IMG/VR virus record: IMGVR_UViG_3300032046_000003
Location: 64,001 to 128,000 of that record
DNA from: a virus
Reading direction: 5' to 3' (one strand)
Length of the DNA stretch: 64,000 nt
Positions 2 to 32,280 of this stretch are shown one piece after another. The translations under genes and the position numbers were made by a program. Each line of letters opens with the position of its first letter. The stretch's first letter is position 1. Under the pieces are notes generated by a model, which saw only the letters and a program-made list of their open reading frames with translations, had not been told where the DNA came from and ran no database searches.

Positions 2-217
2 ATAAGGGCGGTAATTGGTGAATTGCCTAATGATCCAAAAACTAGAATACAAACTTTAATATTCAATAGAGACCCTAATTTTGGTAAAGCTTGGAATTTA
101 TTTGAAGCTAAGCAATGGACAAAATCACACAAAGACAGAATAAAAGTGAGTATAAATTTGAGAGATTTATTACAAAAATGTCAACAACTTATAACTGATA
201 AAGGAGTGAATCAATAA
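2..217 (+). CDS. 3' end of an upstream head-region gene (partial)
   Basis: The reading frame is open from the first bases of the window and stops at 215-217, so this is the C-terminal part of a longer protein whose start lies upstream. A TTG at 23 is in frame but has no ribosome site, so I do not treat it as the start. The visible 71 residues are basic and hydrophilic, with no motif I recognise. By position just ahead of the protease it could be the tail of a portal or minor head protein; that is inference from gene order only. Its stop overlaps the next start (TAATG), suggesting translational coupling. Confidence 0.6.
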   Translation: MRAVIGELPNDPKTRIQTLIFNRDPNFGKAWNLFEAKQWTKSHKDRIKVSINLRDLLQKCQQLITDKGVNQ

Positions 218-2187
218 TGTACCCTAATTTACTTATGCCTGGAAGAGTTAGTAAAACTGAAGTTTCTAAAAGTATAGACGATAATAAATTTGTTATTAGA
301 GGTTATGCTAGTGTTCCTATATTAGATTTGGAAAATGAAATTATAGCTACCGAAGCTTATGATGATGCTATAGAAACTGTAAAATCTAGAGCAGGACAAA
401 ATAGACCACTACCAATTTTTATAGAACATAGGAGAAAAGAATTATCTTTACCAGTGGGCAAAATAACCGATGCTGGCAAAGATGATAAAGGAATGTGGTT
501 TACAGGAGAAATAGCAGGAGGAATAATTGGGCAGCCTATAAGAGAATTAATCAAAGGTGGTTATTTATATGGATGTTCAATTGGAGGAGATGCCGTAAAG
601 ACCGTTCAATATTTTGATACACAACACAATAGAGATGCTAAGAAAATTACAAAGATGGCGTTTAGAGAATTATCTTTAACCGGTCTTCCAGTCAATGAGG
701 AGGCCGTATTTTCAATTTCCAAAAGTCTAAATAAGAACGAAAAGGAGGTGAGAAGATTAATGGATAAGTTAGACTCAGCGATAGATATGCAAAAATCTAT
801 TTCTCTATTAGAGAAGGCCGTGGAGCCCAACAATCTCGACGAACAGTCATTAAATCGAATAAAAGAAGCATTAAACAATTTAGCTAAATTGTTACAAATT
901 GATATTACTGACGAAGGCGGAGAGCAACAAGTTGAAACTCCACCTAAAACAGAAGAGTTGCAAAAACCCGGGATTATGAGTACCAATACCGAATCTACTA
1001 CTGGCGAAGAAAATCCCCAGGAAATAGGGCAGGGAATGGAATCTACAAATATCTCAGGTAACGCCTCGGGGAATACCTCGGGTGGAATGAACTCTGGAGT
1101 TGAAGGCAAATTAGCAATGATTGCCGAAAAACTCGATAAACTGATACAGATTGAAAGTGGCGAAGCTACTACTGATGAAAATGGTTCCCCTAAAGGCAAC
1201 CAAGAATTGGTTGAGGGCGACAAGAAGCCTGATGGTGAAACTGAATTAGTAGAAAACGATAAGAAGAATCAAGAGCCAAAAATGGTCGAAGGAAATAAAA
1301 AGGCTCAGGATAAAAAATCCGATAAAAAGAAAGATTTTAATAAATCTTTAAAAATACAAGGAGACGACGAAATGAGCGATTCTAGAATGGAATGTCCAAA
1401 TTGTGAATCTGTGTATAAAAGCACAGATGAATACGAAGTAAGACATTGCCCAGAATGTGGATCGTCTTTCGCCAAGAGCTCCGAAACAAAGGAGGAAACA
1501 AACAAAATGGAAACCGAAGAAGTAATATTCGAAGACGATCTTATGTGTGAGGACTGTGGCTCAGTATTTGGTAAATCGTTATCGTACGAAGCCAATTATT
1601 GTCCAAAATGCGGTAAATCATTAGCTACCGTGGCTATTGCGCAATCACCTAAGGGTGCAAGTACGCAAAGACCTACGCAAAGCAAAATGAATGTTGGCAA
1701 AACCAACATAGACGATGTAGCTGTTGCCCAAAGTCCTAAAGGCGCATCAACTCAATACAAGAATAAGAGCGAAGCAGCAGAAGATATAGAGAAAAATCTT
1801 GAATTAGAGAATCCGCCTCTAGAAGATACTGGGGAATCAGTTTCAGAGTGGAAAGACGGCAATTATATACCAGCAGATAAAAAGGAAAGAGTAGATATGG
1901 AAGACGAAGATATAAATGTTGCACGTCCTAGTGGAAAACCAATGTTGAGCTCAGCCGATCAGTCAAAATTCCGTACATACGGAACTGATAGGACAAAGTC
2001 GGTCAATGTTGAAGATAGATTAGAATCTATCGAGAAAACATTGGAAAAGGTATTAGATAAATCTGATGGCAGAAAGTCTAATATTCCGTCTGAAAGTATA
2101 GAAAAATCTTCTCAATCTTCAGCAGCTCCTACGCAAGACAGTATTGACAGAAGCTTTGCTAGGATGATACTGGGCAGCGAGAAGTAA
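217..2187 (+). CDS. HK97-type prohead protease fused to scaffold-like region
   Basis: A 656-residue protein. Residues 1-180 look like a U35/HK97 prohead serine protease: a conserved His (H71 in IEHRRKELSLPVGK) and a Ser in YGCSIGGDA (S121), followed by the typical FRELSLTGLPVNEEA stretch. This domain would mature the capsid during head assembly. Residues from about 180 on are low-complexity, Glu/Lys/Ser/Asn-rich and partly helical, as in scaffolds. They carry two CxxC-x14-CxxC zinc ribbons (C393/C396/C411/C414 and C444/C447/C462/C465) and a repeated AQSPKGAST motif. A ribosome site AAAGGAG at 200-206 supports the ATG. The zinc ribbons are unusual for a scaffold. Three further in-frame starts with good ribosome sites lie inside the gene. 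The protease assignment is firm; the scaffold role is inferred from position and composition. Confidence 0.85.
   Translation: MYPNLLMPGRVSKTEVSKSIDDNKFVIRGYASVPILDLENEIIATEAYDDAIETVKSRAGQNRPLPIFIEHRRKELSLPVGKITDAGKDDKGMWFTGEIAGGIIGQPIRELIKGGYLYGCSIGGDAVKTVQYFDTQHNRDAKKITKMAFRELSLTGLPVNEEAVFSISKSLNKNEKEVRRLMDKLDSAIDMQKSISLLEKAVEPNNLDEQSLNRIKEALNNLAKLLQIDITDEGGEQQVETPPKTEELQKPGIMSTNTESTTGEENPQEIGQGMESTNISGNASGNTSGGMNSGVEGKLAMIAEKLDKLIQIESGEATTDENGSPKGNQELVEGDKKPDGETELVENDKKNQEPKMVEGNKKAQDKKSDKKKDFNKSLKIQGDDEMSDSRMECPNCESVYKSTDEYEVRHCPECGSSFAKSSETKEETNKMETEEVIFEDDLMCEDCGSVFGKSLSYEANYCPKCGKSLATVAIAQSPKGASTQRPTQSKMNVGKTNIDDVAVAQSPKGASTQYKNKSEAAEDIEKNLELENPPLEDTGESVSEWKDGNYIPADKKERVDMEDEDINVARPSGKPMLSSADQSKFRTYGTDRTKSVNVEDRLESIEKTLEKVLDKSDGRKSNIPSESIEKSSQSSAAPTQDSIDRSFARMILGSEK
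741..750 (+). promoter_or_regulatory. Internal Shine-Dalgarno for a nested scaffold start
   Basis: AAAGGAGGTG lies 9 bases before an in-frame ATG at 760 (residue 182), exactly where the protease domain ends. It is one of the best ribosome sites in this region. Confidence 0.6.
760..2187 (+). CDS. Nested scaffold-like product from internal in-frame start
   Basis: Translation from the ATG at 760 would give a 475-residue protein identical to residues 182-656 of the protease fusion, without the protease domain. The start follows a near-perfect ribosome site at 741-750. In phage lambda the scaffold Nu3 is made the same way inside the protease gene C, so a separately made scaffold is a natural reading. 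Two more in-frame ATGs with ribosome sites, at 1372 (AAGGAG at 1358-1363) and 1507 (AAAGGAGG at 1488-1495), each fall just before one zinc ribbon, so shorter products are possible. The sequence shows the sites; that they are used is inference. Confidence 0.5.
   Translation: MDKLDSAIDMQKSISLLEKAVEPNNLDEQSLNRIKEALNNLAKLLQIDITDEGGEQQVETPPKTEELQKPGIMSTNTESTTGEENPQEIGQGMESTNISGNASGNTSGGMNSGVEGKLAMIAEKLDKLIQIESGEATTDENGSPKGNQELVEGDKKPDGETELVENDKKNQEPKMVEGNKKAQDKKSDKKKDFNKSLKIQGDDEMSDSRMECPNCESVYKSTDEYEVRHCPECGSSFAKSSETKEETNKMETEEVIFEDDLMCEDCGSVFGKSLSYEANYCPKCGKSLATVAIAQSPKGASTQRPTQSKMNVGKTNIDDVAVAQSPKGASTQYKNKSEAAEDIEKNLELENPPLEDTGESVSEWKDGNYIPADKKERVDMEDEDINVARPSGKPMLSSADQSKFRTYGTDRTKSVNVEDRLESIEKTLEKVLDKSDGRKSNIPSESIEKSSQSSAAPTQDSIDRSFARMILGSEK
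1356..1374 (+). promoter_or_regulatory. Second internal ribosome site and ATG
   Basis: ACAAGGAG at 1356-1363 precedes an in-frame ATG at 1372 by 8 bases. The product would begin 7 residues before the first zinc ribbon of the scaffold region. Confidence 0.4.
1488..1509 (+). promoter_or_regulatory. Third internal ribosome site and ATG
   Basis: AAAGGAGG at 1488-1495 precedes an in-frame ATG at 1507 by 11 bases. The product would begin 13 residues before the second zinc ribbon. Confidence 0.35.
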
Positions 2188-2210
2188 TCTCGACTCAAAC
2201 AAAAAAACAA

Positions 2211-2226
2211 GTGAGACAAATCTCAC
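2211..2226 (+). other. Perfect 6-bp hairpin in the capsid gene leader
   Basis: GTGAGA, a CAAA loop and TCTCAC form a perfect stem-loop between the protease/scaffold gene and the capsid gene. No T-run follows, so it is more likely a processing or stability element than a terminator. Confidence 0.4.
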
Positions 2227-2279
2227 GAAATTAATAATGCTGCGGTCAACTGGGAGAAGACTACCGCGAAATAAAAAAC

Positions 2280-2312
2280 TTCCTCCAAAAAATCATAAAC
2301 AAAAGGGGGGAA
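2280..2312 (+). promoter_or_regulatory. Possible SD-sequestering hairpin before capsid gene
   Basis: TTCCTCC at 2280-2286 can pair with GGGGGAA at 2306-2312 (7 bp including one U-G), leaving a 19-base loop. The purine arm is the ribosome site of the capsid ATG at 2320. This could modulate capsid translation. The pairing is visible; any regulatory effect is inference. Confidence 0.3.
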
Positions 2313-2319
2313 AAATAAA

Positions 2320-2387
2320 ATGGCTAGTTTAGAAAAAGCTCTGTCGTCAATAAGCGGACAGGGCGGAGATGTAATTATACCTCAGCT
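2320..2387 (+). CDS. Major capsid protein, exon 1
   Basis: Exon 1 encodes residues 1-22 (start MASLEKALSSISGQ, end IIPQ) plus two bases of a Leu codon. ATG 2320 follows a GGGGGG-rich ribosome site. Reading on past 2387 meets a stop two codons later (CTT AAT TAA). The spliced coding sequence is the join of 2320-2387, 3305-3562 and 4415-5036, which is 948 bases or 315 residues and gives one uninterrupted frame. The joined protein has the usual place and style of an HK97-fold major capsid protein. The 5' splice site follows CTCAGCT, which pairs with the intron guide GGCTGA at 2398-2403 (U-G at the splice site, as in group I introns). Confidence 0.8.
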
Positions 2388-3304
2388 TAATTAAGCAGGC
2401 TGACTTGCAGGTGACTGCAATGAAAAAAGATTGCTATATCGGAAAAAGTCGAATGGACTATTAAGTGGGTCTAAGATTAAATTGATCATTTAATCGACGG
2501 AGCTCCAACTCCTAGACCCTTTTAATACTTGGAGGTATTATAATGGAATTATTAGAATGTAAAATTTGTGGACATAAAACTAAACAATTACATAATCATA
2601 TAAAATTTACTCATAAAATGAGTAGTAAAGAATATAAAGAAAAGTTTAATGTTAAGACATTATGTATTATTTGGAATAAAGGTCAAACTAGAAAAACAAA
2701 TTCAATTGTTGCTAAATATGGTGATTCTGCTACAAAAAGTGGTAAACATAGAAAACCACAACCATTATATTTCAAATGTTGGAATAAAGGATTAACAGTA
2801 GATACAGATGAAAGAATGGCTAGACTAAATGTAAAAGCTCAAAAAGCAGTTGCACAAACATTTAAAAGAAAGAATTATATATCTAGTTTAGATGAGAAAC
2901 TATATGTGTTATTAAATAAAAATAACATAAAATATGATCCACAAAAAAGTGTTACTATTGATAATAAATATGTTACGATTTTAGATGCATTTGTAGAACC
3001 TAACATTTGTATTTATGTTGATGGTAATTACTGGCATTCAATTCCAAGAGTAAAAAATAGAGATTCATTTTTTACAGATAAGTTAATAAAAATTGGATTT
3101 AAAGTAATAAGAATATGGGAAAATGAATTCGATAATTCCGAGGAAAGACTCTTAAATTTTATAAGAGAATCCGTAGAGACTATACGCAATCCTCTCAATA
3201 TTTGAGATGAAGATATAGTCCGAACTGAAAATATAAACCAATAAATTTCAGAGTTAATTAGAAATAATTAACCATCTAAAGACGGTAGATGTAACAACTG
3301 GTTG
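2388..3304 (+). ncRNA. Group I intron 1 in the capsid gene (IA-like, td-like)
   Basis: A 917-base self-splicing intron is inferred from structure. P1: exon CTCAGCT pairs with GGCTGA at 2398-2403. P2: TTGCAG, GTGA, CTGCAA at 2405-2420. P4-P6: a closed hairpin set from GGGTCTAAG to TAGACCC just before the endonuclease gene. P7: GACTATA 3178-3184 with TATAGTC 3214-3220. P9: CTGAAA with TTTCAG, then TTAATTA with TAATTAA. P10: AGCA 2394-2397 pairs with the exon 2 start TGCT. The last intron base is G3304. The second capsid intron has the same elements with compensating changes (CTGCAA/TTGCAG in P9). The start strongly resembles the phage T4 td intron. The host gene frame is restored exactly by this splice. 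Confidence 0.85.
2543..3205 (+). CDS. Intron-encoded homing endonuclease, Vsr/EDxHD-like
   Basis: A 220-residue protein inside intron 1, after the ribosome site TTGGAGG. N-terminal CKICGHKTKQLHNHIKFTH is a CxxC...H...H zinc finger of the kind seen in homing endonucleases, followed by WNKG-type NUMOD3-like DNA-binding repeats. The C-terminal part ILDAFVEP, IYVDGNYWH, RD and IRIWENEF resembles the very-short-patch-repair (Vsr/EDxHD) nuclease fold. It would cut intronless capsid genes to spread the intron. The last codons (ESVETIR) are also the P7 strand of the ribozyme core. Base composition is very AT-rich (about 18% GC in bases 2881-2940). The fold assignment is by motif only. Confidence 0.75.
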   Translation: MELLECKICGHKTKQLHNHIKFTHKMSSKEYKEKFNVKTLCIIWNKGQTRKTNSIVAKYGDSATKSGKHRKPQPLYFKCWNKGLTVDTDERMARLNVKAQKAVAQTFKRKNYISSLDEKLYVLLNKNNIKYDPQKSVTIDNKYVTILDAFVEPNICIYVDGNYWHSIPRVKNRDSFFTDKLIKIGFKVIRIWENEFDNSEERLLNFIRESVETIRNPLNI

Positions 3305-3562
3305 TGCTGACCAGATAATTCCGGTTATCCGTCAGAAATCTTACATGAGGCAATTCTTACAAAGTTTCAATATGCCGACAGAAACGTACAGGTTTCCTAA
3401 GTTAACAACTGGGAATACCGTGTATTATGTTGGAGAAACTGCCTCTGCTCCTGAAAGTTTAATGGCTACGGGGACTGTAGAACTCAACGCGAAAAAGCTC
3501 ATGGTGGCATTAGCGGTCAGTGCTGAATTAGAAGAAGATGCGGTTCTGCCAATCGTTCCCGT
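3305..3562 (+). CDS. Major capsid protein, exon 2
   Basis: Exon 2 continues the capsid protein in frame after intron 1 (joined residues LADQIIPVIRQKSYMRQF). It covers the N-terminal arm and E-loop-like region of an HK97-type subunit, ending VLPIVP plus two bases of a Val codon at 3562. A free-standing reading from the ATG at 3345 would miss its first 13 residues and run into the intron, ending with a false tail. The 5' splice site of intron 2 follows CCGT (3559-3562), which pairs with GCGG 3573-3576. Exon identity rests on frame continuity and intron pairing; it was not tested by splicing. Confidence 0.8.
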
Positions 3563-4414
3563 AAATAATATTGCGGCTTTCTCAATAAATTGAGATCGAA
3601 AATTTGACTATATCGGTGAAGGTCTTATGGAAAAAAGTTATGGGGCTAAGATTGAATTAGCTATTTAATCGACGGTGCCTAATCACCAAGCCCCTTATAT
3701 CTATTAGGAGATTATATGAATAAAGGACAATTTAAAAAAGGGCATAAAGGATATTGGTTCGGAAAGCGTAGAAGCAAAGAAACTATCAGTAAAATAAAAT
3801 TAACTGAGAAAGAACAGTTTAGAAATGGTATACGAAAACCTTGGAATAAGGGATTAAAAGGCGATAAAAGATGCGTTTGGAATGAGGGACTAACAAAAGA
3901 CACAAACGCAGGCATTAAAAAAATAAGTGATTCTAAGAAGGGTAAAACTTTCAAAGAAATCGCAAAGAATGTTAATCCCGAAGAATGGAAAAAGAAAGTA
4001 GCAAGGCATGGTGAAAACAATGGAAGTTGGCGCGGTGGCATAAGTTGGTATCATGGAAAAGATTGGAAAGCAATAAGTAAAAGTTATCGTAAGAAAAACC
4101 CAATTTGTAAAAAATGCAATAAGAAAGTTAAAATTGTTCACCATATATTACCGTATATTGTATTTAAGAGTGATAAAGAATTGATGTCTTTATGCAGAGG
4201 TTGTCATAGAAGTATAGAGAATTTACTAGATAAGTTTTTTAAGATAACACCGAGGAAAGACTGGAGTAATCCAGAATCCGTAGAGACTATACGTCAAATA
4301 ACTAAAGATTGGTTAGTTAATGATATAGTCCGAACTGCAAATATAATCCAATAAATTGCAGAAGTAATTAGAAATAATTACTCATTTATAGAAATATAAA
4401 TTGTAACATAATTG
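3563..4414 (+). ncRNA. Group I intron 2 in the capsid gene
   Basis: An 852-base intron with the same architecture as intron 1. P1: exon CCGT with GCGG 3573-3576. P2: TCTCAA, TAAA, TTGAGA. The CTATATCGG segment and the P4-P6 block from GGGGCTAAG to AAGCCCC are shared with intron 1. P7: GACTATA 4285-4291 with TATAGTC 4324-4330. P9: CTGCAA with TTGCAG, then TAATTA with TAATTA. P10: TATT 3569-3572 with exon 3 AATA 4415-4418. The last base is G4414. P1 has only four pairs, so the exact splice position is a little less sure than for intron 1, but frame, terminal G and P10 agree. Confidence 0.8.
3716..4354 (+). CDS. Intron-encoded HNH homing endonuclease
   Basis: A 212-residue protein in intron 2, start ATG after TAGGAGATT. 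The N-terminus has several NUMOD3-like repeats (KKGHKGYWFGKRRSKETISKIK-type, PWNKGL, WNEGLTKDT). NGSWRGGISW precedes a zinc-supported HNH nuclease: CKKCNKK, then the HH of IVHHILPY, then CRGCHRSIE. It probably recognises the capsid gene at the intron 2 site. The final 28 residues (from PESVETIR to NIIQ) are read straight through the P7 to P9 ribozyme core. It is unrelated in catalytic fold to the intron 1 endonuclease, so the two introns carry different mobility genes on similar ribozymes. Confidence 0.85.
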   Translation: MNKGQFKKGHKGYWFGKRRSKETISKIKLTEKEQFRNGIRKPWNKGLKGDKRCVWNEGLTKDTNAGIKKISDSKKGKTFKEIAKNVNPEEWKKKVARHGENNGSWRGGISWYHGKDWKAISKSYRKKNPICKKCNKKVKIVHHILPYIVFKSDKELMSLCRGCHRSIENLLDKFFKITPRKDWSNPESVETIRQITKDWLVNDIVRTANIIQ

Positions 4415-5036
4415 AATAAGGGATGATATGGCAAAAGCATTTGCTCTTGCTGAGGAAAATGTTTTCATCAATGGAGACACAACTCACACTGCAACTGCAA
4501 CGGATCCTTCATCTGGAACTGATGCAAACTGGTATGTTAATGACCAAAGATTGGCTTTTAACGGATTAAGAAAGGTAGCATGTGGCACTTCAGTTGATGC
4601 TGGAAGTGGTGCTCTTACTTTAGCTGATATTTCGGCAGGTATTCAAAACTTAGACGTCTTCGGACGCGATAAGTCAGAGTTACTGTTGATTGTTTCACTT
4701 AGAGAAGAAAACACTCTTCGTCAATTGTTAGGTATCAACCTTGCTGTTAACCAGCTTGGTTTAACCGGCACAGCGCTTCCTGGAGAAATAGGTAAGGTAT
4801 GGGGCGTTCCAGTAGTTGCAACGAATTTACTCGCAATAGATTCTGACAATGAATCGGAAGCTTTAATTCTTAACAGAAATGCAGCGATTATCGGCGATCG
4901 TAGGATATTTACTATCAAGTCTTCGGACGAGGTATTAATACGTACTGATCAATTGTTAATTGTGGCTTCTGAAAGGTTAGCTTTCAATGCTCAATACTGT
5001 CAAGCGGTTGTTAAAATAGTTAACATCGCGGCCTAA
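4415..5036 (+). CDS. Major capsid protein, exon 3
   Basis: Exon 3 completes the capsid protein. The joined sequence reads PVIRDDMAKAFALAEENVFING, split here as VIRDDMAKAF and ALAEENVFING; this is a recognisable HK97-family segment at the start of the P domain. It ends at a TAA at 5034-5036. A stop (TGA 4413-4415 in this frame) lies just before the exon, so the frame can only be entered by splicing or from the internal ATG 4428, which lacks a good ribosome site. The protein forms the icosahedral shell and would be processed by the protease encoded upstream. A stable hairpin follows the stop. Confidence 0.85.
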
Positions 5037-5056
5037 GTCTAAATGTAATTAAGGGT

Positions 5057-5082
5057 GGGAGGTAGATTTACCTCTGCCTCCC
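5057..5082 (+). other. Stable hairpin after the capsid gene
   Basis: GGGAGGTAGA 5057-5066 pairs with TCTGCCTCCC 5073-5082 (10 bp, one U-G) around a 6-base loop. Only a short weak T-run follows, so it may be a partial terminator or a 3' stabiliser of the abundant capsid mRNA. Confidence 0.5.
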
Positions 5083-5108
5083 ATCTAGTTTAAAATAGGA
5101 GAAATAAA

Positions 5109-5546
5109 ATGTCAAAAGTACTAACAGATTTTAATTTATTACTGAATTGGAAAAAAGAAAAAAAAGTATATAAAATAGTTAAAAATTATCCAATAAATTT
5201 ACCTGAGGAAGTCATTAACTATTTAAAAATAAAATATCCGCAGAATCAAATTAAAATAGTTGATGTAGCACCCATAGCGCCTGTACCATCTATTCCTATT
5301 AATGTTCAAAAAGAACCTAGTGATATGATTCTTGAGGATTTAATAGTACAGTCAAAAATAATCAGTAGTGTTAACGCAGACCCAATAAAAACCACTATAG
5401 AACAAGCTTTAAACAAAGGCATTATAATAAGAAAAGGTGTATGGTATGAGTTTGAGGGCGAAAATATATGTAAAGGAATTAATAAATTAAAAGATAAGCT
5501 TGAAAATGACATGGAACTGTTAAATAAAATTCATAATAAATTATAA
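5109..5546 (+). CDS. Small protein with RecA C-terminus-like segment
   Basis: A 145-residue protein after a TAGGAG ribosome site. The first two thirds (YKIVKNYPINLPEEVINYLK, then a Pro/Ile-rich linker) are unknown to me. The last 45 residues resemble the C-terminal domain of bacterial RecA: KGVWYEFEGENICKG matches the RecA pattern GxWYxYxGExIGQG, followed by a Leu/Asn/Glu helix like RecA's tail. No RecA ATPase core is present. It sits between capsid and neck genes, where a head completion or decoration protein would be expected. The similarity is by eye and function is unknown. Confidence 0.5.
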   Translation: MSKVLTDFNLLLNWKKEKKVYKIVKNYPINLPEEVINYLKIKYPQNQIKIVDVAPIAPVPSIPINVQKEPSDMILEDLIVQSKIISSVNADPIKTTIEQALNKGIIIRKGVWYEFEGENICKGINKLKDKLENDMELLNKIHNKL

Positions 5547-5555
5547 GGAATAAAA

Positions 5556-6722
5556 ATGAAATCATCTTTTACATGGAATTTTTCTAATCCGAGTGATTAT
5601 ACATATAACACTTCAAAAATAACTTTTGCTACAGATATTAATGGTGATGATTATATCACTTTAACTAATCCTGCTGATATGACATTTCCTTATATTATAA
5701 ATGCCACTGGAGTATATTTTACATTTATAAATAAAATAACTACTGTAGAAACTGATACTGTATCAGGTGCCGTAATAAGGTATCAATTAAGTCAAAATGG
5801 AGAAGACTGGTATTTTTATAACACGTCAACAGCACTCTGGGAATTAACAGCCGTAACAACAGGAACTTATTCTGAAATAGTTTCAGCTTCTAATTCTGAT
5901 GTTGAACTTAGTAAGGCTATATGCGAAAAATTTGCTACACAAGTTGATTCAGGAAAATTATATTGGAAAGCATTCTTGATGAGCGACGGCAACAATTCGC
6001 CTCGACTTTATTCTTTTAAATTTGATTTTGAACAATACTATACAACTATAAAATTAATAAGGGATTTAATGAGTCCATATGGATTAAGGGCAAGAGATCC
6101 AATAAGTGGATTATATTGCGTTGATACAGATTTTCTTTCAGATGATAAAATAAGAGCTTATATTCCATTAGCAGATTCATATATTAATAGTTCGTGTTTT
6201 AGAGACTTTTATTATCATAGAGATGTTGTAGAGTTCCACGATGGTAATAATACTGAAGGCATGATTACTTATTTCTTCCCTATAACCAAAATATCGCATG
6301 TTATAATGTATAACCAATTATTACAGGCTATGAGAACATTCCTGGACTTTGAAATAATTATACATCCTGAATGGGGTGAGCTTTTTCTACCACCAGCATA
6401 TCCCGCATTCTTATCGGATAAACCGTCAAGGGCCATATTTGGCAATATATTCATATATGGAAAACGTAACGTTGAAATCATGTATGACTACGGATATGAT
6501 GTGCCTTTAGAAGACATACAGCAAGCGGCCTCAAAATATGCCGGCATATTGGTTCTTCAAGCTTATTGGGCTTGGCTGACAAGAGGAATCCAATCAAGAA
6601 GCTTTGATGGATATTCAGAATCTTATATGCAAAAACCATTCGAAGGTATAACTGAGATTTGGAGAAAAGAAATAGAGATGATTATCAATACCAATAGAAA
6701 GCAATTCCAGAGGTCAATTTAA
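5556..6722 (+). CDS. Putative head completion/neck (connector) protein
   Basis: A 388-residue protein. The N-terminal 160 residues are beta-rich (SFTWNFSNPSDY, alternating Thr/Ile/Tyr strands) and look like an Ig/lectin-like virion domain. The C-terminal half is helical, with RDLMSPYGLRARDPISGLY and a late YGYDVPLEDIQQAASKY helix, typical of phage head-tail connector (gp6-like) proteins that bind below the portal. Gene order (capsid, this, neck genes, sheath) supports that. The fusion of a beta domain to a connector-like domain is unusual. The stop overlaps the next gene's ATG (TTTAATGG). Role inferred from position and helix pattern. Confidence 0.5.
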   Translation: MKSSFTWNFSNPSDYTYNTSKITFATDINGDDYITLTNPADMTFPYIINATGVYFTFINKITTVETDTVSGAVIRYQLSQNGEDWYFYNTSTALWELTAVTTGTYSEIVSASNSDVELSKAICEKFATQVDSGKLYWKAFLMSDGNNSPRLYSFKFDFEQYYTTIKLIRDLMSPYGLRARDPISGLYCVDTDFLSDDKIRAYIPLADSYINSSCFRDFYYHRDVVEFHDGNNTEGMITYFFPITKISHVIMYNQLLQAMRTFLDFEIIIHPEWGELFLPPAYPAFLSDKPSRAIFGNIFIYGKRNVEIMYDYGYDVPLEDIQQAASKYAGILVLQAYWAWLTRGIQSRSFDGYSESYMQKPFEGITEIWRKEIEMIINTNRKQFQRSI

Positions 6723-8977
6723 TGGAGATAATGGAACTTTCTGTACTTGAAGAGGCAATGGATATATTAAAAGCTGGAGTTGGGATGCCAAAACTGCCAT
6801 CTGCAGGTGGAGGCATGTCCATGAAACCTCATAAGTACGTTAGAAAGGACCCTGATTATTTTGGTCCTGGTAAACATAGATATTGGTATAAAACTCCTTC
6901 AGGTGATTTAGTATCATCTGATAAAGAAGTTCAAGAGGGACAAGAATTAAAACCTGAAGAGGCTCAAAAAAAGCCTGCGGCTATGGCTCCTGAAGAGCAA
7001 AAACAGCTTGGCAACAAGATAAAAGATTTAATGGCTAATGTTAAACAAAAGCTTGGTGGAATGCCTGCTGAAAAAACGCCAGCACCTATTGCAGCAACTC
7101 AACCTCAAATTTCAGGTGCTGCTGAAGATGTAGAGTTTTTAAGGAACACAATGCCATATTTGGATAATTTGGCAGAAAAACTTAAAAATACCATTGTTCA
7201 ATCTGAAGCAGAGGGCTTAAAACAAGAAATATTAAACAATTATGTGGGTAGATTTAGAGATTTAGTGTATGAAAAAATGCACAAATTACCACCTGGACAA
7301 ACTGTTGGTAAAACTGATACAATAAAAACTGAAAAAGATATTGAAAAACTTGAAAATATGAAGCGTGAAGCTTATATGAATAAAGATATGAAACAAGCTA
7401 AGAGAATAGATATGAGAATAACTGAAATTTCTCAAGCCGAGGCTGCTTTAGAAGAAGACAAGTTGAAACAGCAATATGCCTCTGAGATAAAAGATAGAAC
7501 AGAAAATCCCCAAAAGTATTATCAGAAAAATCAAGATGTTAAAGCAAAATCTTTAAGCGTAAGCAATAGTGTAAAAATTAAGGAAAAACAAGCCGTTAAT
7601 GATTACTATTTGTATTCTATAAACAAAGAGCAAAGGGATGCGGGAAAGTCGGAGTTTAAAAATATAGATGATTATTATACTCAAGTTGGAAGCGCCATAG
7701 ACAGCGTAATTAAAACTGCGGCGATCTCTAAATATAGCATCAACGCTAAAACGGGCGATGTTAAACTTTGGGGCACTAAGGAAGAAATAGAGGCTAATGC
7801 TAATAAGGTGCTTGAGTTGACTAAAAACTCTGCGACAAATGTTAGTTATGAGAAAATTGGCCTTGAAGAAGGGAAATTAAGGGGCATATTGAAATTCTCT
7901 AATTTGAGGACTGTGCCTCTGTATAAACCCTATAAAACGAGCGCGGTAGACGTGGCCCAAGATATATCTAGCAAAACTTTAGACGGAAATAAGACTGCCA
8001 GACGATGTATGGGAATAGGTAAAGACGGCAAGCCCATACTGCAAGAATTGACCGGAGAAAAAGGACATAATGCTAGAATGGTTTACGCGTCAAAAGGAAG
8101 CGGAAAGACTGAGATGATTGAGGGAACAATTATGTCAGCTTTAGAGGGTAATTCAGATGGCACATATAGAGCGGTTGTTGTTGATCCTGTTGGAGCAACA
8201 TTCTCAATATTAAAAGCGGATGATGCGAGTTTATCTCCCGAACAAAAAAATTATAAAAACAAATTAAACAATTGGATTAAAACAGGAAGACTGACGGTGT
8301 TTTCAGATAAGGTCGACCAAAACAATTACAAAGACTTCTATAAGAAAACCACAGATTATATAAATAAGGAAAGAGCTCTGCAGGCATCATCGAGAGGTTC
8401 TGACAACAATTTGTACAACAGCCCATACGTTCAAGGCGCGATAGACATACATATGGATGAATTACAAGTATTAAATGGCTTTGCAGAAAAAGACCCGGAA
8501 ATGAAAACTAAACTATACAGCTTAATACGCAATATAGCAAACAATGATTCCAGAAAAAACTTAATGCCTATTACCTGTTATGCGCAAATGCCAAACACTA
8601 AAATGAACTCTGCTATTGGAGCGAGTTGGGACGCTATAGAAAGTATAGGCTCGGCTGCTTATAGAGCCATAGGAAGCACTCATGGAATAGCTTCGGCAAA
8701 AGAATTTAAAAAAGCAGCTGCGAATGAAATTACATCATATGATATGAATTCGCATACTGCAGATTATTATGACCAAATGGTAGTTGGCCCTTCTATAAAA
8801 GACGCCTTTGGCGAAATTAAAGGCAATACGGAACCAACTAATAATTCAAACGCTAAAGAACAACAAATACCTGTATCAATGAAAGAGGGATATACTAAAG
8901 AAACGATGCCTACTGGACCCAACGTAATAGACGCAGCGAAAGTCGGTAAAAAAACATTACCAATTAAAAGGACTTAA
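6722..8977 (+). CDS. P-loop ATPase (HerA/FtsK-like) in the neck gene cluster
   Basis: A 751-residue protein. Near the N-terminus HKYVRKDPDYFG and KHRYWYKTP form a phage HKY-R-x-P linker motif seen in minor head proteins. Residues about 90-440 are Lys/Glu/Gln-rich and probably coiled coil. Residues about 430-700 form a P-loop NTPase: Walker A ASKGSGKT at 456-463, a VVVDPVG strand, and Walker B IDIHMDE at 574-580 (D579, E580). A later ITCYAQMPN strand is reminiscent of the sensor strand of HerA/FtsK DNA pumps. It is not a terminase: no large-terminase nuclease domain is seen and the position is after the capsid gene. A DNA translocation or injection role is speculation. Confidence 0.65.
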   Translation: MEIMELSVLEEAMDILKAGVGMPKLPSAGGGMSMKPHKYVRKDPDYFGPGKHRYWYKTPSGDLVSSDKEVQEGQELKPEEAQKKPAAMAPEEQKQLGNKIKDLMANVKQKLGGMPAEKTPAPIAATQPQISGAAEDVEFLRNTMPYLDNLAEKLKNTIVQSEAEGLKQEILNNYVGRFRDLVYEKMHKLPPGQTVGKTDTIKTEKDIEKLENMKREAYMNKDMKQAKRIDMRITEISQAEAALEEDKLKQQYASEIKDRTENPQKYYQKNQDVKAKSLSVSNSVKIKEKQAVNDYYLYSINKEQRDAGKSEFKNIDDYYTQVGSAIDSVIKTAAISKYSINAKTGDVKLWGTKEEIEANANKVLELTKNSATNVSYEKIGLEEGKLRGILKFSNLRTVPLYKPYKTSAVDVAQDISSKTLDGNKTARRCMGIGKDGKPILQELTGEKGHNARMVYASKGSGKTEMIEGTIMSALEGNSDGTYRAVVVDPVGATFSILKADDASLSPEQKNYKNKLNNWIKTGRLTVFSDKVDQNNYKDFYKKTTDYINKERALQASSRGSDNNLYNSPYVQGAIDIHMDELQVLNGFAEKDPEMKTKLYSLIRNIANNDSRKNLMPITCYAQMPNTKMNSAIGASWDAIESIGSAAYRAIGSTHGIASAKEFKKAAANEITSYDMNSHTADYYDQMVVGPSIKDAFGEIKGNTEPTNNSNAKEQQIPVSMKEGYTKETMPTGPNVIDAAKVGKKTLPIKRT

Positions 8978-10191: not shown

Positions 10192-10926
10192 ATGAAACAA
10201 AAAACTGGGCCCAAATTATTATTAAGAATAACTAAATTATGTTCATGCGGTTGTAATGAAGCCTTCATTTGTAAAATAACTTCTAAACAAAAATATATAA
10301 ATGGACATTGTAGAAAAGGTACACACTTTTCTGATATTTCTAAAAATAAAATGCGAAAAGAAAATAATTATCATTGGATTACAATAGAAACTAGATTTTG
10401 TAAATGTGGTTGTGGTAAATCATTTGAATGTAAAATAAATTCAAAAAAACAATATATTCATGGGCATTACTGTGTTGGTAAAATTAGTAAAGCAAAGGGA
10501 AAAATTATAGTTCCTAGAGAAACACGAACATGTGTTTGTGGTTGTAGGTTAACTTTTAAATGTAGAACAACTTCTACTAAAAAATGTTTAAATAGAGAAC
10601 ATAAAGGAAAATTACACAGTAAGTTAGTTGGCGGAGAAAATAATGGTAATTGGCAAGGTGGAAAATCTTTTGAGATATACCCACAAGCTTTTAGCAAATC
10701 TTTAAAAGAAAGAATCAGAACAAAAGACAATCACACTTGCCAAGAATGTAAGTTTATAGAAAATCAATTAGAAAAAAAACTCCATATTCATCATATAGAT
10801 TATAACAAACAAAACAATGATGAAAATAATTTAATAAGTCTTTGTAATTCATGTCACGCTCAAACTAATTTTAAGAGAAAAGATTGGACTAAATATTTAA
10901 AAAATAAAATATTGGAGACAATATAA
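10192..10926 (+). CDS. Freestanding HNH homing endonuclease
   Basis: A 244-residue protein beginning one base after the previous stop. It has three copies of a CxCGC...C...GH zinc module (CSCGCNEAF, CKCGCGKSF, CVCGCRLTF), then a NUMOD-like NGNWQGGKS, and an HNH nuclease: CQECK, IHHIDYN, CNSCHAQ. Its last codons (ATATTGGAGACAATATAA) contain the GGAG ribosome site of the following gene. The coding sequence is much more AT-rich than its neighbours, in keeping with a mobile gene. It does not interrupt a coding frame, so it is freestanding rather than intronic. Confidence 0.85.
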   Translation: MKQKTGPKLLLRITKLCSCGCNEAFICKITSKQKYINGHCRKGTHFSDISKNKMRKENNYHWITIETRFCKCGCGKSFECKINSKKQYIHGHYCVGKISKAKGKIIVPRETRTCVCGCRLTFKCRTTSTKKCLNREHKGKLHSKLVGGENNGNWQGGKSFEIYPQAFSKSLKERIRTKDNHTCQECKFIENQLEKKLHIHHIDYNKQNNDENNLISLCNSCHAQTNFKRKDWTKYLKNKILETI

Positions 10927-13203: not shown

Positions 13204-14076
13204 ATGAAAGAATCTAATGTAATTGAAGGAATTGATTATATAATTTGTCCAATATGTAAAAATAAAATAAAAAAACTTACAACTTCTCATTTAAAAAGAC
13301 ATTCAATCGCTTTTAGTATTTTTAAGAAACAATTTCCAAATCAACAGTTAGTATGCAAAAATACAAGCAAATTAATTGGAGATTTACAATTGGGCAAAAA
13401 TAATCATCAATATGGCAAACCTTCTTGGAATAAAGGCCTAACTAAAGCAATAGATCGTAGAGTCGCTAAATATTCCGAATCTATTAGTAAAACGCAAAAT
13501 GGTAAAACTTATGAAGAAAGATTTGGTATAGAAAATTCTAAAAAGCACAGGAATAACATAAGTAAAGCTATGATGAATCGTTATGTTTCTGGTGTAACTA
13601 GAGCCAAGATTGGTAAAGCAAATAGTGGAAAAATAAGAACAGAAGAACACAAATGTAACATGAGAATTGCCCAAAATAGATCAGAAATTAAATTAAAAAA
13701 AAGATTGGCCATTTGTAAAAATATTAAAAAGAATGGTGGACTTTTCGCAGGTTATAATTCAAATGCCTGTGAAATTTTCAAACAGTTTGATGAATTAAAT
13801 AATACTAATGGAATTTTTGCAACAAATCCTTATGAGTTCCAGATTTTAGGTTATTCTCTCGACTATATAAACTTCGATAAAAAGCTTATAATAGAAATAG
13901 ATGAAAAGCATCACTTTGACAAAAACGGACTATTAAAATCTAAAGATGTAATTCGTCAAAGAGAAATACAAGAACTATATTCAGGTTTTAAATTTTTAAG
14001 ATTTAGGGAGGAAAATATGAGTAAAATATTGGAAATGAAAGTAGAAAATTTTAAAGGAGGTGGTATTTGTGAGTAA
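13204..14076 (+). CDS. Freestanding homing endonuclease, EDxHD/Vsr-like
   Basis: A 290-residue protein. The N-terminal CPICKNKIKKLTTSHLKRH zinc finger resembles that of the intron 1 endonuclease. NUMOD3-like repeats follow (PSWNKGLTKAID, GKTYEERFGIENSKK, RAKIGKANSGK). The catalytic part GYSLDYINFDKKLIIEIDEKHH, split here as GYSLDYINFDKK and LIIEIDEKHH, followed by D and RQREIQ, matches the EDxHD style. The last codons (NFKGGGICE) encode the AAAGGAGGTGG ribosome site of the tube gene, and the frames overlap by eight bases. Upstream an unused AAAAAGGAGGG site remains at 13168-13178, as if the tube gene's original ribosome site was left behind by the insertion. Confidence 0.8.
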   Translation: MKESNVIEGIDYIICPICKNKIKKLTTSHLKRHSIAFSIFKKQFPNQQLVCKNTSKLIGDLQLGKNNHQYGKPSWNKGLTKAIDRRVAKYSESISKTQNGKTYEERFGIENSKKHRNNISKAMMNRYVSGVTRAKIGKANSGKIRTEEHKCNMRIAQNRSEIKLKKRLAICKNIKKNGGLFAGYNSNACEIFKQFDELNNTNGIFATNPYEFQILGYSLDYINFDKKLIIEIDEKHHFDKNGLLKSKDVIRQREIQELYSGFKFLRFREENMSKILEMKVENFKGGGICE

Positions 14077-14868: not shown

Positions 14869-15414
14869 ATGCCTGGAATTATAGGATCTCCATTAACCGC
14901 GTTAACCGCAAATATAACTTTTGACGGTCAAAAAATAGGACAACTGCAAGAGATAACTGTGGAGGAAAACTACAACTTAAAGCCTATTGAACAAATAGGT
15001 TCTAGCTACATCACTGAGTTCTTACCTGGTACGTATAGCGGAAGAATCGTTGCTGCTCGTGCTTTGATCGAAGGAGATTTATTTTTTGATAAACTTACTC
15101 CCGGCTTAACTTCTTCACAAGCACTTACAACAGTAGCAAACGATATGCTAGGTGATGGCTCAGTCAACATAAGTCCCGTAATAAAAGTGTTCGAAGGGAT
15201 AAACGACTTTTGGAATCAGATTTTTTTAGGAAAGGCAACAAAAGACAGAATAAACTTTGTTGTTTATTTTGATATAGAGTTGATAAATCCTAATAATGAA
15301 ATATTTGCAAAGTATTCTAAATGTGCAATATCCGCAAAAACGCTTTCAGTACAGTTAAATAATATAGTTATTATGCAGAATATTACATGTCTTTTCCAAA
15401 ATAGGTCAGTATAA
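14869..15414 (+). CDS. Tail tube-like protein 2
   Basis: A 181-residue paralogue of the previous tube protein: GSPLTALTANITFDGQKIGQLQ at the N-terminus and a C-terminal strand pair IVIMQNITCLFQNR, which matches VIIMSDVTLLARKR in paralogue 1. The conserved ends with a divergent middle suggest a shared barrel with a different insertion. It may form a tube end ring or a tail-tip adaptor. The stop overlaps the start of an inserted endonuclease gene. Confidence 0.6.
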   Translation: MPGIIGSPLTALTANITFDGQKIGQLQEITVEENYNLKPIEQIGSSYITEFLPGTYSGRIVAARALIEGDLFFDKLTPGLTSSQALTTVANDMLGDGSVNISPVIKVFEGINDFWNQIFLGKATKDRINFVVYFDIELINPNNEIFAKYSKCAISAKTLSVQLNNIVIMQNITCLFQNRSV

Positions 15415-16046
15415 TGAAAAATAAAAGACATGGTAAAACAGGAAGACACTGGAAGTTATCTGGAGAAACTAAAAAACGCCAAAGTGAGGCCAAAATAGGA
15501 GATAAGAATCCATCATATGGTAAGCCTGCATATAATAGAGATGTTTCATCATCTGAACAATCTAAACTAAAAAATAGATTAGCTCATTTGGGTAAAAAAC
15601 AATCCAAAGAAATTATAGAAAAACGATTTGCCTGGTTAAAGGATAATAACAAAAGATTAGAAACTAATAAAAAAAGAAGTAAATCTTTGTCTGGAAGAAT
15701 TCAATCTGATGAACATAGACTTAATTCTAGAAAAGCTGCTATTAATAGAATTACGAGAAATAATGGAATTTGCAGACCTAATTTTAATCCAAAAGCATGT
15801 GAATTTTTTAAAAGCTATGATGAACATAATAATACAAACGGACAATATGCAACTAGTGGTGGAGAATATGAAATAAAAGATTTGGGTTATTTTCTTGACT
15901 ATATTAATTTTGATAAAAAACTTATAATGGAATTTGATGAGAAATATCATGATAAACGAAAAGATAAAGACGTAATTCGTCAAAAAGAGATTCAGCAATT
16001 ATATCCAGATTTTAAATTTATAAGAATAAAACAGGAGAGCATATAA
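15414..16046 (+). CDS. Freestanding homing endonuclease, EDxHD/Vsr-like
   Basis: A 210-residue protein. Basic N-terminus with NUMOD3-like KIGDKNPSYGKPAYNRD. A central block NPKACEFFKSYDEHNNTNGQY is shared with three sibling endonucleases. The catalytic segment GYFLDYINFDKK, LIMEFDEKYH, RQKEIQ is the EDxHD type. It starts at an ATG overlapping the stop of tube paralogue 2, and its last codons (AAACAGGAGAGCATATAA) supply the ribosome site of tube paralogue 3. No zinc module is present at its N-terminus, unlike its siblings. Confidence 0.8.
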   Translation: MKNKRHGKTGRHWKLSGETKKRQSEAKIGDKNPSYGKPAYNRDVSSSEQSKLKNRLAHLGKKQSKEIIEKRFAWLKDNNKRLETNKKRSKSLSGRIQSDEHRLNSRKAAINRITRNNGICRPNFNPKACEFFKSYDEHNNTNGQYATSGGEYEIKDLGYFLDYINFDKKLIMEFDEKYHDKRKDKDVIRQKEIQQLYPDFKFIRIKQESI

Positions 16047-24575: not shown

Positions 24576-25232
24576 ATGAATAAAAACAAATATTGCAAAT
24601 GCGGTTGTAAACAAATAGTTAATAATAAATTTGTTCAAGGTCATAATAGCAAGGGTAAAAATAATCCTATGTATGGTAAACATCATTCTGTAAAAACTAT
24701 AAAAAAAATGAGTCAATCTCGCAAAGGTAAAATTTATATTGCTAGAGAAACTCGTTATTGCAAATGTGATTGTGGATTTTCAAAAGAAGTGAAAATAAAT
24801 TCTAAATGGAAATTTAAAAGAGGACATGGTGGTATAGGAAAAAATAATTCTATGTACGGTAAGCCTTCTCCTAATAAGGGTAAAAAAATTAAACCTTGTT
24901 CTGAAAAAAGAAAGAAAATAAATAGATTTTTAGCTATTAAAAGAATAGAGGAAAATCATGGAATTTGTATGCCGGGATATAACAAAAAAGCATGCGAGTT
25001 TTTTAAGAATTATGACGAGAAAAACAATACCAAAGGTCATTATGCTGTTTACGGTGGTGGAGAACATTATATTAAAGAGCTCGGTTATTGGCCTGATTAC
25101 ATAAACTTTGATAAAAAAATAATAATAGAGTTTGATGAAAAATATCATAATAAAAGACTTGAGAAAGACGCTATTAGACAGCAACAAATTCAGAAATTAT
25201 ACCCAGATTTTGAATTTAGGAGAATGAAATAA
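24576..25232 (+). CDS. Freestanding homing endonuclease, EDxHD/Vsr-like
   Basis: A 218-residue protein. Two N-terminal zinc modules (CKCGCKQIV...GH and CKCDCGFSKE...GH) are like those of the HNH protein at 10192. NUMOD3-like repeats follow (GKNNPMYGKHH, GKNNSMYGKPSPNKG). The C-terminal NKKACEFFKNYDEKNNTKGHY block and catalytic GYWPDYINFDKK, IIIEFDEKYH, RQQQIQ match its siblings. So the DNA-binding part is shared with an HNH enzyme and the nuclease with the EDxHD group, a sign of domain shuffling. The last codons (TTTAGGAGAATGAAATAA) give the next gene its ribosome site. Confidence 0.8.
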   Translation: MNKNKYCKCGCKQIVNNKFVQGHNSKGKNNPMYGKHHSVKTIKKMSQSRKGKIYIARETRYCKCDCGFSKEVKINSKWKFKRGHGGIGKNNSMYGKPSPNKGKKIKPCSEKRKKINRFLAIKRIEENHGICMPGYNKKACEFFKNYDEKNNTKGHYAVYGGGEHYIKELGYWPDYINFDKKIIIEFDEKYHNKRLEKDAIRQQQIQKLYPDFEFRRMK

Positions 25233-28878: not shown

Positions 28879-30267
28879 ATGAGTTTAGATAACATAAGAA
28901 AATTACTTTTAAATAGTCTATCAAATATTTTCAATAAGGCCGCCTCAACCAGAAATTATCAATTAATGACCGCAGTCGCCAATGAATTAACCGATAATGA
29001 AAACAATATTGAGCAAATGAGGAGAGCCTCTACTATAAATGAGGCCATAAGCGGAGACCTCGATTTACACGGAACCACTCTAAATGTAAAAAGAATATAT
29101 TTAGAAGACGATGAAGCCTATAGAATTAGATTATTAGAAAGCTATGATAGACCTCAGGTTACTTCTTCAAATTTAAAAGAATTGGCTGAATTTTATGTTG
29201 GTTCCACAGTAATTAAAGAAGAATATATAAAAGATAGATGGTGGCTTGGTGGAAACTTATGGCCAGTTACAGAAATCGAAATTGTTCCTGCTATAACCAG
29301 CACCATTGCTCAAACTACGAGCGGCGCTTTAACAAATACAATGCCGGAATGTTGGAGCATTTTAGACATATTGCATACGGGCACAAATTATTGTTCTGGG
29401 TGTTCTTTTACCAATAATTCATCTGGTGCTTTAATAACTCTGACCACTCCGGTTACCGCTGGAGATTTATTACAAGTAGTTTATACTTTAGATGCTATTA
29501 CATCGGGAAGTAATATAGATTGGGTGCCGCATGGATTTTTAGGATATGACGCCATAATCCATCATAGGGTATTGTCGAATAATTACGACCTAATAACATC
29601 CAATATAAGAAATATAACTATACAAACCAATATGCTTCCAGGGTATGCAGTATATACATCATTATTTAATATCGACACAGGCATAATATATGGATGGCAA
29701 AATACTGTTGATAGCGACGGGCAAATTATATTAGATGAAAACACTAGAGTTGATAATTTGGTAGTAGACGAATATCAAATAGCTGATGATGTTAATCAAG
29801 TTTCAGTGAATCATTCTATAGCAAAAGTAGTTAGCGTATATTTGGCGATTGATGTCAATCATACCGGCACTAATTACGCGACAACTAATAATTTTAATGG
29901 CAATACTGTAATATTAGATATACCGCTTCCAAGCAAAACCGCAGTCATAGTTAATTATAACAGGTACCCAATTCAAAATTATAGAGATTTTAATATAGAT
30001 AATTTTGTAAAAACAGGCGATGAAGATTTAAGATTTACTATGGAGTTTCAGTTAAATGCGGACTTTATAAAATACAATACTGCCAAATATTCTCAAATAT
30101 CTTGGGGGCAATTGGCCAACGATAATATAAGTTTGGTTGCTGAGGCAATTGACATAGCAAAAGCGGCCGGTATAAAAACCAAATTGATAATCGTATCAAA
30201 AGGAGCCATATACGGACAAGTAAGTTCTGTATATGCCCAAGTATTCTACGGCGGACAATATTATTAA
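28879..30267 (+). CDS. Baseplate wedge/tail protein I-like
   Basis: A 462-residue protein. The N-terminal 100 residues are helical (RKLLLNSLSNIFNK, MTAVANELTDNENNI, then HGTTLNVKRIYLEDDEAYRIRL), as in I-type proteins that attach fibres to the wedge. The middle and end carry the same small beta module twice (LDILHTGTNYC and YLAIDVNHTGTNYA) and a final DIAKAAGIKTKL helix-strand. Position right after J supports the role. Confidence 0.6.
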   Translation: MSLDNIRKLLLNSLSNIFNKAASTRNYQLMTAVANELTDNENNIEQMRRASTINEAISGDLDLHGTTLNVKRIYLEDDEAYRIRLLESYDRPQVTSSNLKELAEFYVGSTVIKEEYIKDRWWLGGNLWPVTEIEIVPAITSTIAQTTSGALTNTMPECWSILDILHTGTNYCSGCSFTNNSSGALITLTTPVTAGDLLQVVYTLDAITSGSNIDWVPHGFLGYDAIIHHRVLSNNYDLITSNIRNITIQTNMLPGYAVYTSLFNIDTGIIYGWQNTVDSDGQIILDENTRVDNLVVDEYQIADDVNQVSVNHSIAKVVSVYLAIDVNHTGTNYATTNNFNGNTVILDIPLPSKTAVIVNYNRYPIQNYRDFNIDNFVKTGDEDLRFTMEFQLNADFIKYNTAKYSQISWGQLANDNISLVAEAIDIAKAAGIKTKLIIVSKGAIYGQVSSVYAQVFYGGQYY

Positions 30268-30896
30268 TGCCCACTGGAATTTATATAAGAACAGAATATC
30301 ACAAAAGAATAAATAGCAAAAGTCATAAAAACCAAATTCCTTGGAATAAAAATAAGAAAGGTTCACAAATATCTTCTAGAAAAGGTAAGACTTTAGAAGA
30401 AGAATATGGTGTTGAGAGAGCAAAAGAAATAAGTATAAAGTTAAGTAAATGGCAAAAAGGTAAAATATATGAACAGACTATGGGTAGCAAAATAGCCAAA
30501 GAATGTAGAAGAAAACAAAGGTTAAAGGCCATTGAGAGAATAAATAAAAACTATGGTAAATGTTGTCCTAATTATAATCCTAAAGCTTGCGAAATATTTA
30601 AACAATTCGATGAGAAAAATAATACTCAAGGTTATTATGCCATGTATGGTAATGGAGAACATTACATTGAAGAACTTGGTTATTTTCTAGACTACATTAA
30701 TTTTGACAAAAAACTGATAATAGAAGTTGATGAAAAACATCACTTTGATAAAAGTGGTTTATTAAAATCTAAAGATATTAAACGTCAACAAGAAATAAAA
30801 AATTTATATCCTGATTTTAATTTTTTAAGATTCGAAGAAAAAGATATAAATAAAATTTTACAAATTAAAATAGGGGGGGTTTCATGGATAAGTTAA
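30267..30896 (+). CDS. Freestanding homing endonuclease, EDxHD/Vsr-like
   Basis: A 209-residue protein. It carries two GKT/GKI-type DNA-binding repeats (GKTLEEEYGVERAKEI and GKIYEQTMGSKIAKEC), then NPKACEIFKQFDEKNNTQGYY and catalytic GYFLDYINFDKK, LIIEVDEKHHFDK and RQQEIK. Closest sibling in the window is the protein at 13204. It starts at an ATG overlapping the stop of the I-like gene, and its last codons (ATAGGGGGGGTTTC) provide the ribosome site of the next gene, which begins inside its frame at 30884. Confidence 0.8.
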   Translation: MPTGIYIRTEYHKRINSKSHKNQIPWNKNKKGSQISSRKGKTLEEEYGVERAKEISIKLSKWQKGKIYEQTMGSKIAKECRRKQRLKAIERINKNYGKCCPNYNPKACEIFKQFDEKNNTQGYYAMYGNGEHYIEELGYFLDYINFDKKLIIEVDEKHHFDKSGLLKSKDIKRQQEIKNLYPDFNFLRFEEKDINKILQIKIGGVSWIS

Positions 30897-31521: not shown

Positions 31522-32280
31522 ATGACATCGGGCGTTTACATAAGAACTGAAGATAATATAAAAAACTTAAAAGGCAGAAAAAGTTGGAATGAAGGACTTA
31601 CTACTAAAACTGATATAAGATTAATAAAAGCTGGAGAAAGAATAAAAGCAACTAGAATAAAGAATCATTCTTATTTTAGTTGTCGTAAAGGCAAAACTTT
31701 AGAACAAGAATATGGACTTGAAAGAACTAAAGAAATTAGAAAGAACTTAAGTGATTCTCATAAAGGAAATGAAGGTTATTGGAAAGATAAAAAACGTTCA
31801 AAAAAAGATAGAAAAAAAATGAGTGCGGCTAAAATGAACAAAACCTATGAAGAAAGAATGGGTATTGAAAAAGCAAAAGAATGTAAAAGAAAACTAAGTA
31901 AGGCTAAGAGTGGCCAAAATAATCCCATGTATGGTAAACCAACTCCAATTGGTTCTGGAAATTGTAAATGGTATGAATATAATGGCGAAAATTTACAAGG
32001 TACGTATGAATTAAGATTTGCTAAATTATGTGATAAAAATAATATAAGATGGGAAAAAATGCATAAAGTTTTACCTTATATTATTAATAATAGAAAGAGA
32101 AATTACTTACCTGATTTTAAAGTTTGGTTTGATAAAGAACCTGTTTATATAGAAACTAAAGGATATTTTGATGAAAAATCGCAAATAAAAATGAATTTAG
32201 TTAGACAACAGTATCCTGATAAAATATTTATAATTGCTGACGAGAATATATTAAAGATGTATGAGGAGATGACAATATGA
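31522..32280 (+). CDS. Freestanding PD-(D/E)xK-like homing endonuclease
   Basis: A 252-residue protein. N-terminal repeats (RKSWNEGLTTKTD, GKTLEQEYGLERTKEI, NKTYEERMGIEKAKEC, GQNNPMYGKPTPIG) are the same DNA-binding units as in the other HEGs. The nuclease part differs: LQGTYELRFAKLCDKNNI, then NYLPDFKVW and VYIETKGYFDEKS, giving an E...D...ExK pattern as in PD-(D/E)xK enzymes. So this is the third nuclease type in the window. The last codons (GAGGAGATGACAATATGA) supply the ribosome site of the fibre gene, whose ATG overlaps the stop. Confidence 0.8.
   Translation: MTSGVYIRTEDNIKNLKGRKSWNEGLTTKTDIRLIKAGERIKATRIKNHSYFSCRKGKTLEQEYGLERTKEIRKNLSDSHKGNEGYWKDKKRSKKDRKKMSAAKMNKTYEERMGIEKAKECKRKLSKAKSGQNNPMYGKPTPIGSGNCKWYEYNGENLQGTYELRFAKLCDKNNIRWEKMHKVLPYIINNRKRNYLPDFKVWFDKEPVYIETKGYFDEKSQIKMNLVRQQYPDKIFIIADENILKMYEEMTI

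Follow-up and report, generated by a model that had tools for sequence, protein, structure and literature searches.

The question raised by this locus is how a virus can produce a complete major capsid protein from a gene that lies in three pieces, with an endonuclease gene in each of the two stretches between them. The locus belongs to a 64,000-nucleotide stretch of DNA (hereafter the window), corresponding to bases 64,001-128,000 of a 178,280-base virus record, whose gene content includes a tail sheath, baseplate proteins, a DnaB-like helicase and a primase; the tail sheath and baseplate genes indicate a tailed phage with a contractile tail. A terminase search with one Pfam family found none. 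A survey of genomes, one for each bacterial or archaeal species, returned no relatives of the capsid protein. Preceding the capsid gene is a 656-residue open reading frame (217-2187) with a head-maturation-protease-like N-terminal part and, far downstream, two CxxC zinc-ribbon-like motifs, an unusual combination. Shortly 3' of the capsid gene, a 751-residue frame (6722-8977) contains the Walker-A-like sequence GSGKTE and, on inspection by eye, resembles a DNA-translocating ATPase; a similar frame occupies the equivalent place in a relative, L004 (3603-5861).

A capsid gene in three exons

The reading best supported by the sequence is that the major capsid gene is interrupted by two putative group I introns with different predicted endonucleases, arranged as follows.

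2320..2387, + strand: capsid exon 1, 68 bases (22 codons + 2 nt), from spliced alignment to intact relatives
2388..3304, + strand: group I intron 1, 917 nt long, inserted in phase 2 after residue 22 and ending in G
2543..3205, + strand: endonuclease gene 1 in intron 1, Vsr-like (DUF559/MTES_1575) with a Ros/MucR-like zinc finger
3305..3562, + strand: capsid exon 2, 258 bases, from spliced alignment to intact relatives
3563..4414, + strand: group I intron 2, 852 nt long, inserted in phase 2 within codon 109 and ending in G
3716..4354, + strand: endonuclease gene 2 in intron 2, HNH with weak NUMOD3
4415..5036, + strand: capsid exon 3 including the stop codon, 622 bases, from spliced alignment to intact relatives

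When joined, the three exons read in frame and stop-free for 315 codons and yield a 315-residue HK97-type capsid protein that matches Pfam Phage_capsid (1.8e-31, residues 15-311) and the PHROG major head protein (7.5e-33). A spliced protein-to-DNA alignment, in which the profile came from intact relatives only and any intron after U and ending in G was permitted, gave exactly 2388-3304 and 3563-4414, each in phase 2. Each join allows two or three neighbouring cuts that yield an identical mRNA, and only the cut given here combines a 5' exon ending in U with an intron ending in G. The exon lengths proposed in an earlier note on this DNA (68, 258 and 622 bases) are thus exact, the 622 counting the stop and the 315 codons leaving it out, and the splice positions to which, in its argument, P10, the terminal G and the frame all point are those that this alignment returned.

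The uninterrupted gene exists in IMG/VR relatives L003 (88% identical), L005/L006 (73%) and L007 (70%), and three relatives run continuously across both joins, with PQLADQIIP or PRLADQIIP at the first and PIVPV(V/L)RD at the second. A differing sequence at the joins in related phages had been named beforehand as the observation that would speak against the proposal; the relatives carry PQLADQ/PRLADQ and PV(V/I/L)RD intact. With a dN/dS of about 0.04 between the window and L003 (synonymous sites being close to saturation), the joined protein is under strong purifying selection, which may in part be older than the intron insertions. Given that the sequences are metagenome contigs, one might suppose that the introns have decayed and that this copy of the gene is dead, chimeric or misassembled, a supposition rendered highly improbable by this dN/dS, by intact pairing in the intron cores, by interrupted copies on several independent contigs and metagenomes, and by the Phage_capsid matches across the whole record, which consist only of the two larger pieces of the interrupted gene.

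Ribozyme cores and intron-encoded endonucleases

The anatomy of the two introns was located at base level, as listed here.

2382..2387, + strand: P1 exon strand TCAGCU of intron 1; guide GGCTGA at 2398-2403, U·G at the splice site
2394..2397, + strand: P10 intron strand AGCA of intron 1; partner TGCT at 3305-3308
2429..2434, + strand: P3 5' strand GATTGC of intron 1; partner GCAATC at 3186-3191
2439..2444, + strand: P4 5' strand TCGGAA of intron 1; partner TTCCGA at 3136-3141
3136..3220, + strand: core of intron 1, with P4 3', P6, P7 5' (3178-3184), P3 3' (3186-3191), P8 and P7 3' (3214-3220)
3149-3154 / 3162-3167, + strand: P6 of intron 1, CTCTTA/TAAGAG
3225..3251, + strand: P9 of intron 1, CTGAAA/TTTCAG, then another hairpin at 3253-3272
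3559..3562, + strand: P1 exon strand CCGU of intron 2; guide GCGG at 3573-3576
3569-3572, + strand: P10 of intron 2, TATT; partner AATA at 4415-4418
3602..3608, + strand: P3 5' strand ATTTGAC of intron 2; partner GTCAAAT at 4293-4299
3613..3618, + strand: P4 5' strand TCGGTG of intron 2; partner CACCGA at 4248-4253
4248..4330, + strand: core of intron 2, with P4 3', P6, P7 5' (4285-4291), P3 3' (4293-4299), P8 and P7 3' (4324-4330)
4261-4265 / 4270-4274, + strand: P6 of intron 2, CTGGA/TCCAG
4335..4361, + strand: P9 of intron 2, CTGCAA/TTGCAG, then another hairpin at 4363-4382

The elements P1, P4, P6, P7, P9 and P10 that the earlier note had claimed are hence present in both introns, each of which forms a P3/P7 pseudoknot with GACUA...AUAGUC invariant among the aligned introns, and each of which has a 4-bp P10 and a terminal G (G3304 and G4414). 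In P3, P4, P6 and P9 the sequences differ between the two introns while the pairing is kept, and the compensating changes previously noticed in P9 are real (CTGAAA/TTTCAG versus CTGCAA/TTGCAG).

Covariation was measured in a set of 24 introns, drawn from the capsid genes of the window and its relatives, the control being 1000 permutations in which partners were swapped between introns. Mean pairing was 13.5 for P3 against 8.6 when swapped (sd 0.41, maximum 9.9) and 11.1 for P1 against 4.9 (sd 0.59, maximum 6.7), so that neither is due to chance; for P4 the difference (11.9 against 10.5, sd 0.35) is only mildly significant because P4 is alike in all introns. A covariance model of the 3' core, made without the window sequence, matches 3168-3301 (E 1.6e-12) and 4275-4413 (E 1.8e-12), the next match in the window standing at E 1.2 and none further at E<=1 over the 178-kb record. 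The pattern GACTA...GATATAGTC likewise occurs twice in the record, both times in the window introns, and not once in a reversed control. Rfam at its curated thresholds and a cmscan run on the region that admitted E values up to 10 missed both introns; the Intron_gpI scores of 18.0 and 16.6 bits, though the best in the record, lie below the cut-off of 50, probably because the endonuclease genes separate the two P4 strands, as the coordinates indicate, and endonuclease-free introns of relatives reach 58-83 bits. A BLAST search of 50,697 phage records with the intron sequences turned up a single weak match (Microcystis phage MaeS), with none for intron 2.

Inteins, group II introns and translational bypass all occur in phages; as an explanation of these two inserts they are the least probable of those we weighed. 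An intein is at odds with the in-frame stops in the inserts and with open reading frames that have their own starts, no group II family was reported whereas endonuclease-free relatives match the group I model, and a bypass of about 900 nt spanning two conserved ribozyme cores is not credible.

That the two introns carry different endonucleases, another point of the earlier note, agrees with the domain matches. Gene 1 is predicted to encode a Vsr-like nuclease (DUF559 at 2.8e-5, above the cut-off; MTES_1575 at 8.3e-6, below it) and gene 2 an HNH endonuclease (PHROG 1.1e-10; Pfam HNH weak, 0.15); PDB sequence searches with the endonucleases returned nothing useful. By their coordinates the 3' ends of both frames overlap the ribozyme cores, about the last 23 codons of gene 1 and 35 of gene 2 doubling as P4 3', P6, P7 and P3 3', and the motif ESVETIR is common to both proteins because the ends of the frames are ribozyme core sequence. 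Directly before the start of each endonuclease gene in the P5 region, in different introns, lies a hairpin of the form GGG(G/T)CTAAG...(A/G)CCCC or GACCC (2467-2519 and 3642-3694 in the window; 2158-2213, 3437-3492 and 4658-4711 in the relative L012), which may be the P5 stem or a control element for endonuclease translation. Six further endonuclease-like frames lacking an intron core lie between structural genes of the window (10192-10926, 13204-14076, 15414-16046, 24576-25232, 30267-30896 and 31522-32280), several of them mutually 37-66% identical over parts, so that they make up a family dispersed through the structural region.

The endonuclease frame in each insert, together with the several free-standing ones of this phage, could suggest that such genes have simply split the capsid gene and that its separate fragments assemble, as with split phage nrdA genes. 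We regard this as very unlikely: the inserts hold full ribozyme cores with covarying pairs, exon 1 encodes only 22 residues, and in L012 some exons are 11-18 nt long and 13 inserts lack an endonuclease gene.

It is instead very probable that the capsid mRNA is put together from three exons by way of two group I introns with homing endonucleases, the capsid gene serving as a repeated landing place. The gene would be transcribed with both introns inside, each of which would fold via its P3/P7 core; structure and conservation suggest that guanosine-driven cuts would then fall 3' of U2387 and U3562 and that exons 1, 2 and 3 would be ligated into the capsid mRNA. The Vsr-like and HNH endonucleases would presumably cut intronless capsid genes during co-infection and thereby spread each intron. 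Copies of the gene across the lineage hold different introns, some common in site and endonuclease, many endonuclease-free, and up to 16 in number.

Interrupted capsid genes across the lineage

At least seven copies of this capsid gene are interrupted, and the five alleles with mapped sites show 22 distinct positions and phases of insertion. Outside the window, L008/L009 has one intron, L011 two and L013 three; L014, which is cut by the contig end, has one at the same site as intron 2 of the window, and L004 apparently has two, one of them visible only as a 3' end at the contig edge. The extreme case is L012 (IMGVR_UViG_3300032053_000045, 80-7859), in which 16 introns separate 17 exons of 14, 11, 53, 13, 18, 28, 43, 92, 34, 73, 54, 344, 28, 30, 25, 39 and 17 nt, the last counted through the first base of the stop, that join into 305 codons followed by TAG; these introns were aligned with a closer profile (L005/L010), and the frame confirmed the first and the last. 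Thirteen of the 16 lack an endonuclease gene, and all 13 match Rfam Intron_gpI (E 1.3e-20 to 2.6e-7), with ten of them exceeding the curated cut-off. At residue 91 of L012 the intron has an endonuclease frame that looks broken by a stop.

L004 also shows a different arrangement at 93-1940, where the capsid frame has a natural-looking end (ESVVKIENISG*) followed by an endonuclease frame and a group I core, 3' of which stands a second capsid C-terminus (DAVVAIDNIAA*). The inserted element may carry a replacement gene end, so that the unspliced message could also yield a complete capsid protein.

The introns appear to be confined to this one gene. Over ten records of the lineage (612 kb in total, several being fragments), a model of the introns, R1, matched 25 times at E<=0.1, twice in the record of the window and 23 times in relatives, and Rfam matched 21 times at E<=1, on every occasion in the capsid gene, the match of L004 sitting in the intron that precedes its second capsid C-terminus; neither detected an intron in another gene of these 612 kb, with the qualification that the models either were built on capsid introns or perform poorly on endonuclease-bearing ones, so that introns of other types could escape. 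The introns of L011, left out when R1 was built, were found by R1 and, above the cut-off, by Rfam. On 64 distant capsid loci (510 kb) R1 found no intron.

In a tree of 25 introns, those of L012 fall into two main branches, intermixed with introns from other copies. A single founder for all L012 introns was rejected, as the two branches are mixed and copy labels are no more clustered than shuffled ones. At residues 102 and 126 the L012 intron groups with that of L013 as its sister (support 100/99 and 96/95). The endonucleases of these introns share 57-58% identity, compared with about 30% for most other sites, and this points to old introns or to homing at fixed sites. Other introns of L012, standing at different sites, are closest to one another (5/27/61; 37/46; 145/270/300), suggesting that introns have moved within the gene. 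Those at 37 and 46 are each preceded by TCGT, and those at 61 and 91 each by TGGT with near-identical first 20 bases; shared exon bases of this kind would fit reverse splicing, in what is a small sample. A tentative interpretation, which we think rather improbable as it stands, is that the capsid gene of this lineage acts as a dedicated sink in which introns arrive by homing and then multiply inside the gene, at sites that have in common the few exon bases with which the guide pairs; reverse splicing into the very abundant capsid mRNA is a possible route. If true, it would account for the 16 introns of L012, mostly endonuclease-free, and for none being detected in other genes.

Known systems and meaning

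The earlier note's view that two introns with different endonucleases in one short capsid gene are unusual has to be amended, since precedents exist. LittleE (of the Cluster J mycobacteriophages) and Tuc2009 have single capsid introns, and in LittleE, where RT-PCR demonstrated splicing, the 5' exon ends in U and the intron in G (PMC3706429), as here, although there is one intron per gene and the LAGLIDADG-like frame of LittleE lies on the other strand. The nearest precedent is the major capsid gene of a crAss-like Zeta phage (cMAG OLRF01000054), cut into five fragments by four inserts, three of them with group I-typical domains (Yutin 2021, PMC7886860); that phage belongs to another group, has fewer introns than L012 and has introns in many other core genes as well, whereas here they were detected in the capsid gene only. 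For Twort and the Bastillevirinae, up to three group I introns per gene, with small exons between them, have been reported, the genes concerned being polymerase, terminase and others, not capsid (PMC11878797 and references therein).

Outside phages, mitochondrial cox1 of Agaricus bisporus, with 18 group I introns and one group II and exons from 3 nt (PMC2987802), is likewise a single conserved gene serving as an intron reservoir, yet most of its introns retain the endonuclease gene that 13 of 16 lack in L012. In mirusviruses, introns that carry homing endonucleases, of HNH, Vsr-like and other types, also cluster in virion morphogenesis genes, the capsid gene included (PMC12768974); these are, however, spliceosomal introns of eukaryotic viruses and not ribozymes. 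The open-licence literature yielded no description of a phage gene holding as many as 16 introns.

The window introns are ordinary in kind, and the surprise is their concentration in the capsid gene alone across the lineage. The L012 gene, a 0.9-kb capsid gene in 17 exons, is the most heavily interrupted phage gene evidenced here, and because capsid protein is needed in bulk and quickly, 16 splicing events per message would demand very high efficiency. Annotation splits capsid genes of this kind or overlooks them, which bears on virus surveys based on the capsid. The lineage also makes it testable why mobile introns gather in one gene, be it for a conserved target, an abundant message or regulation.
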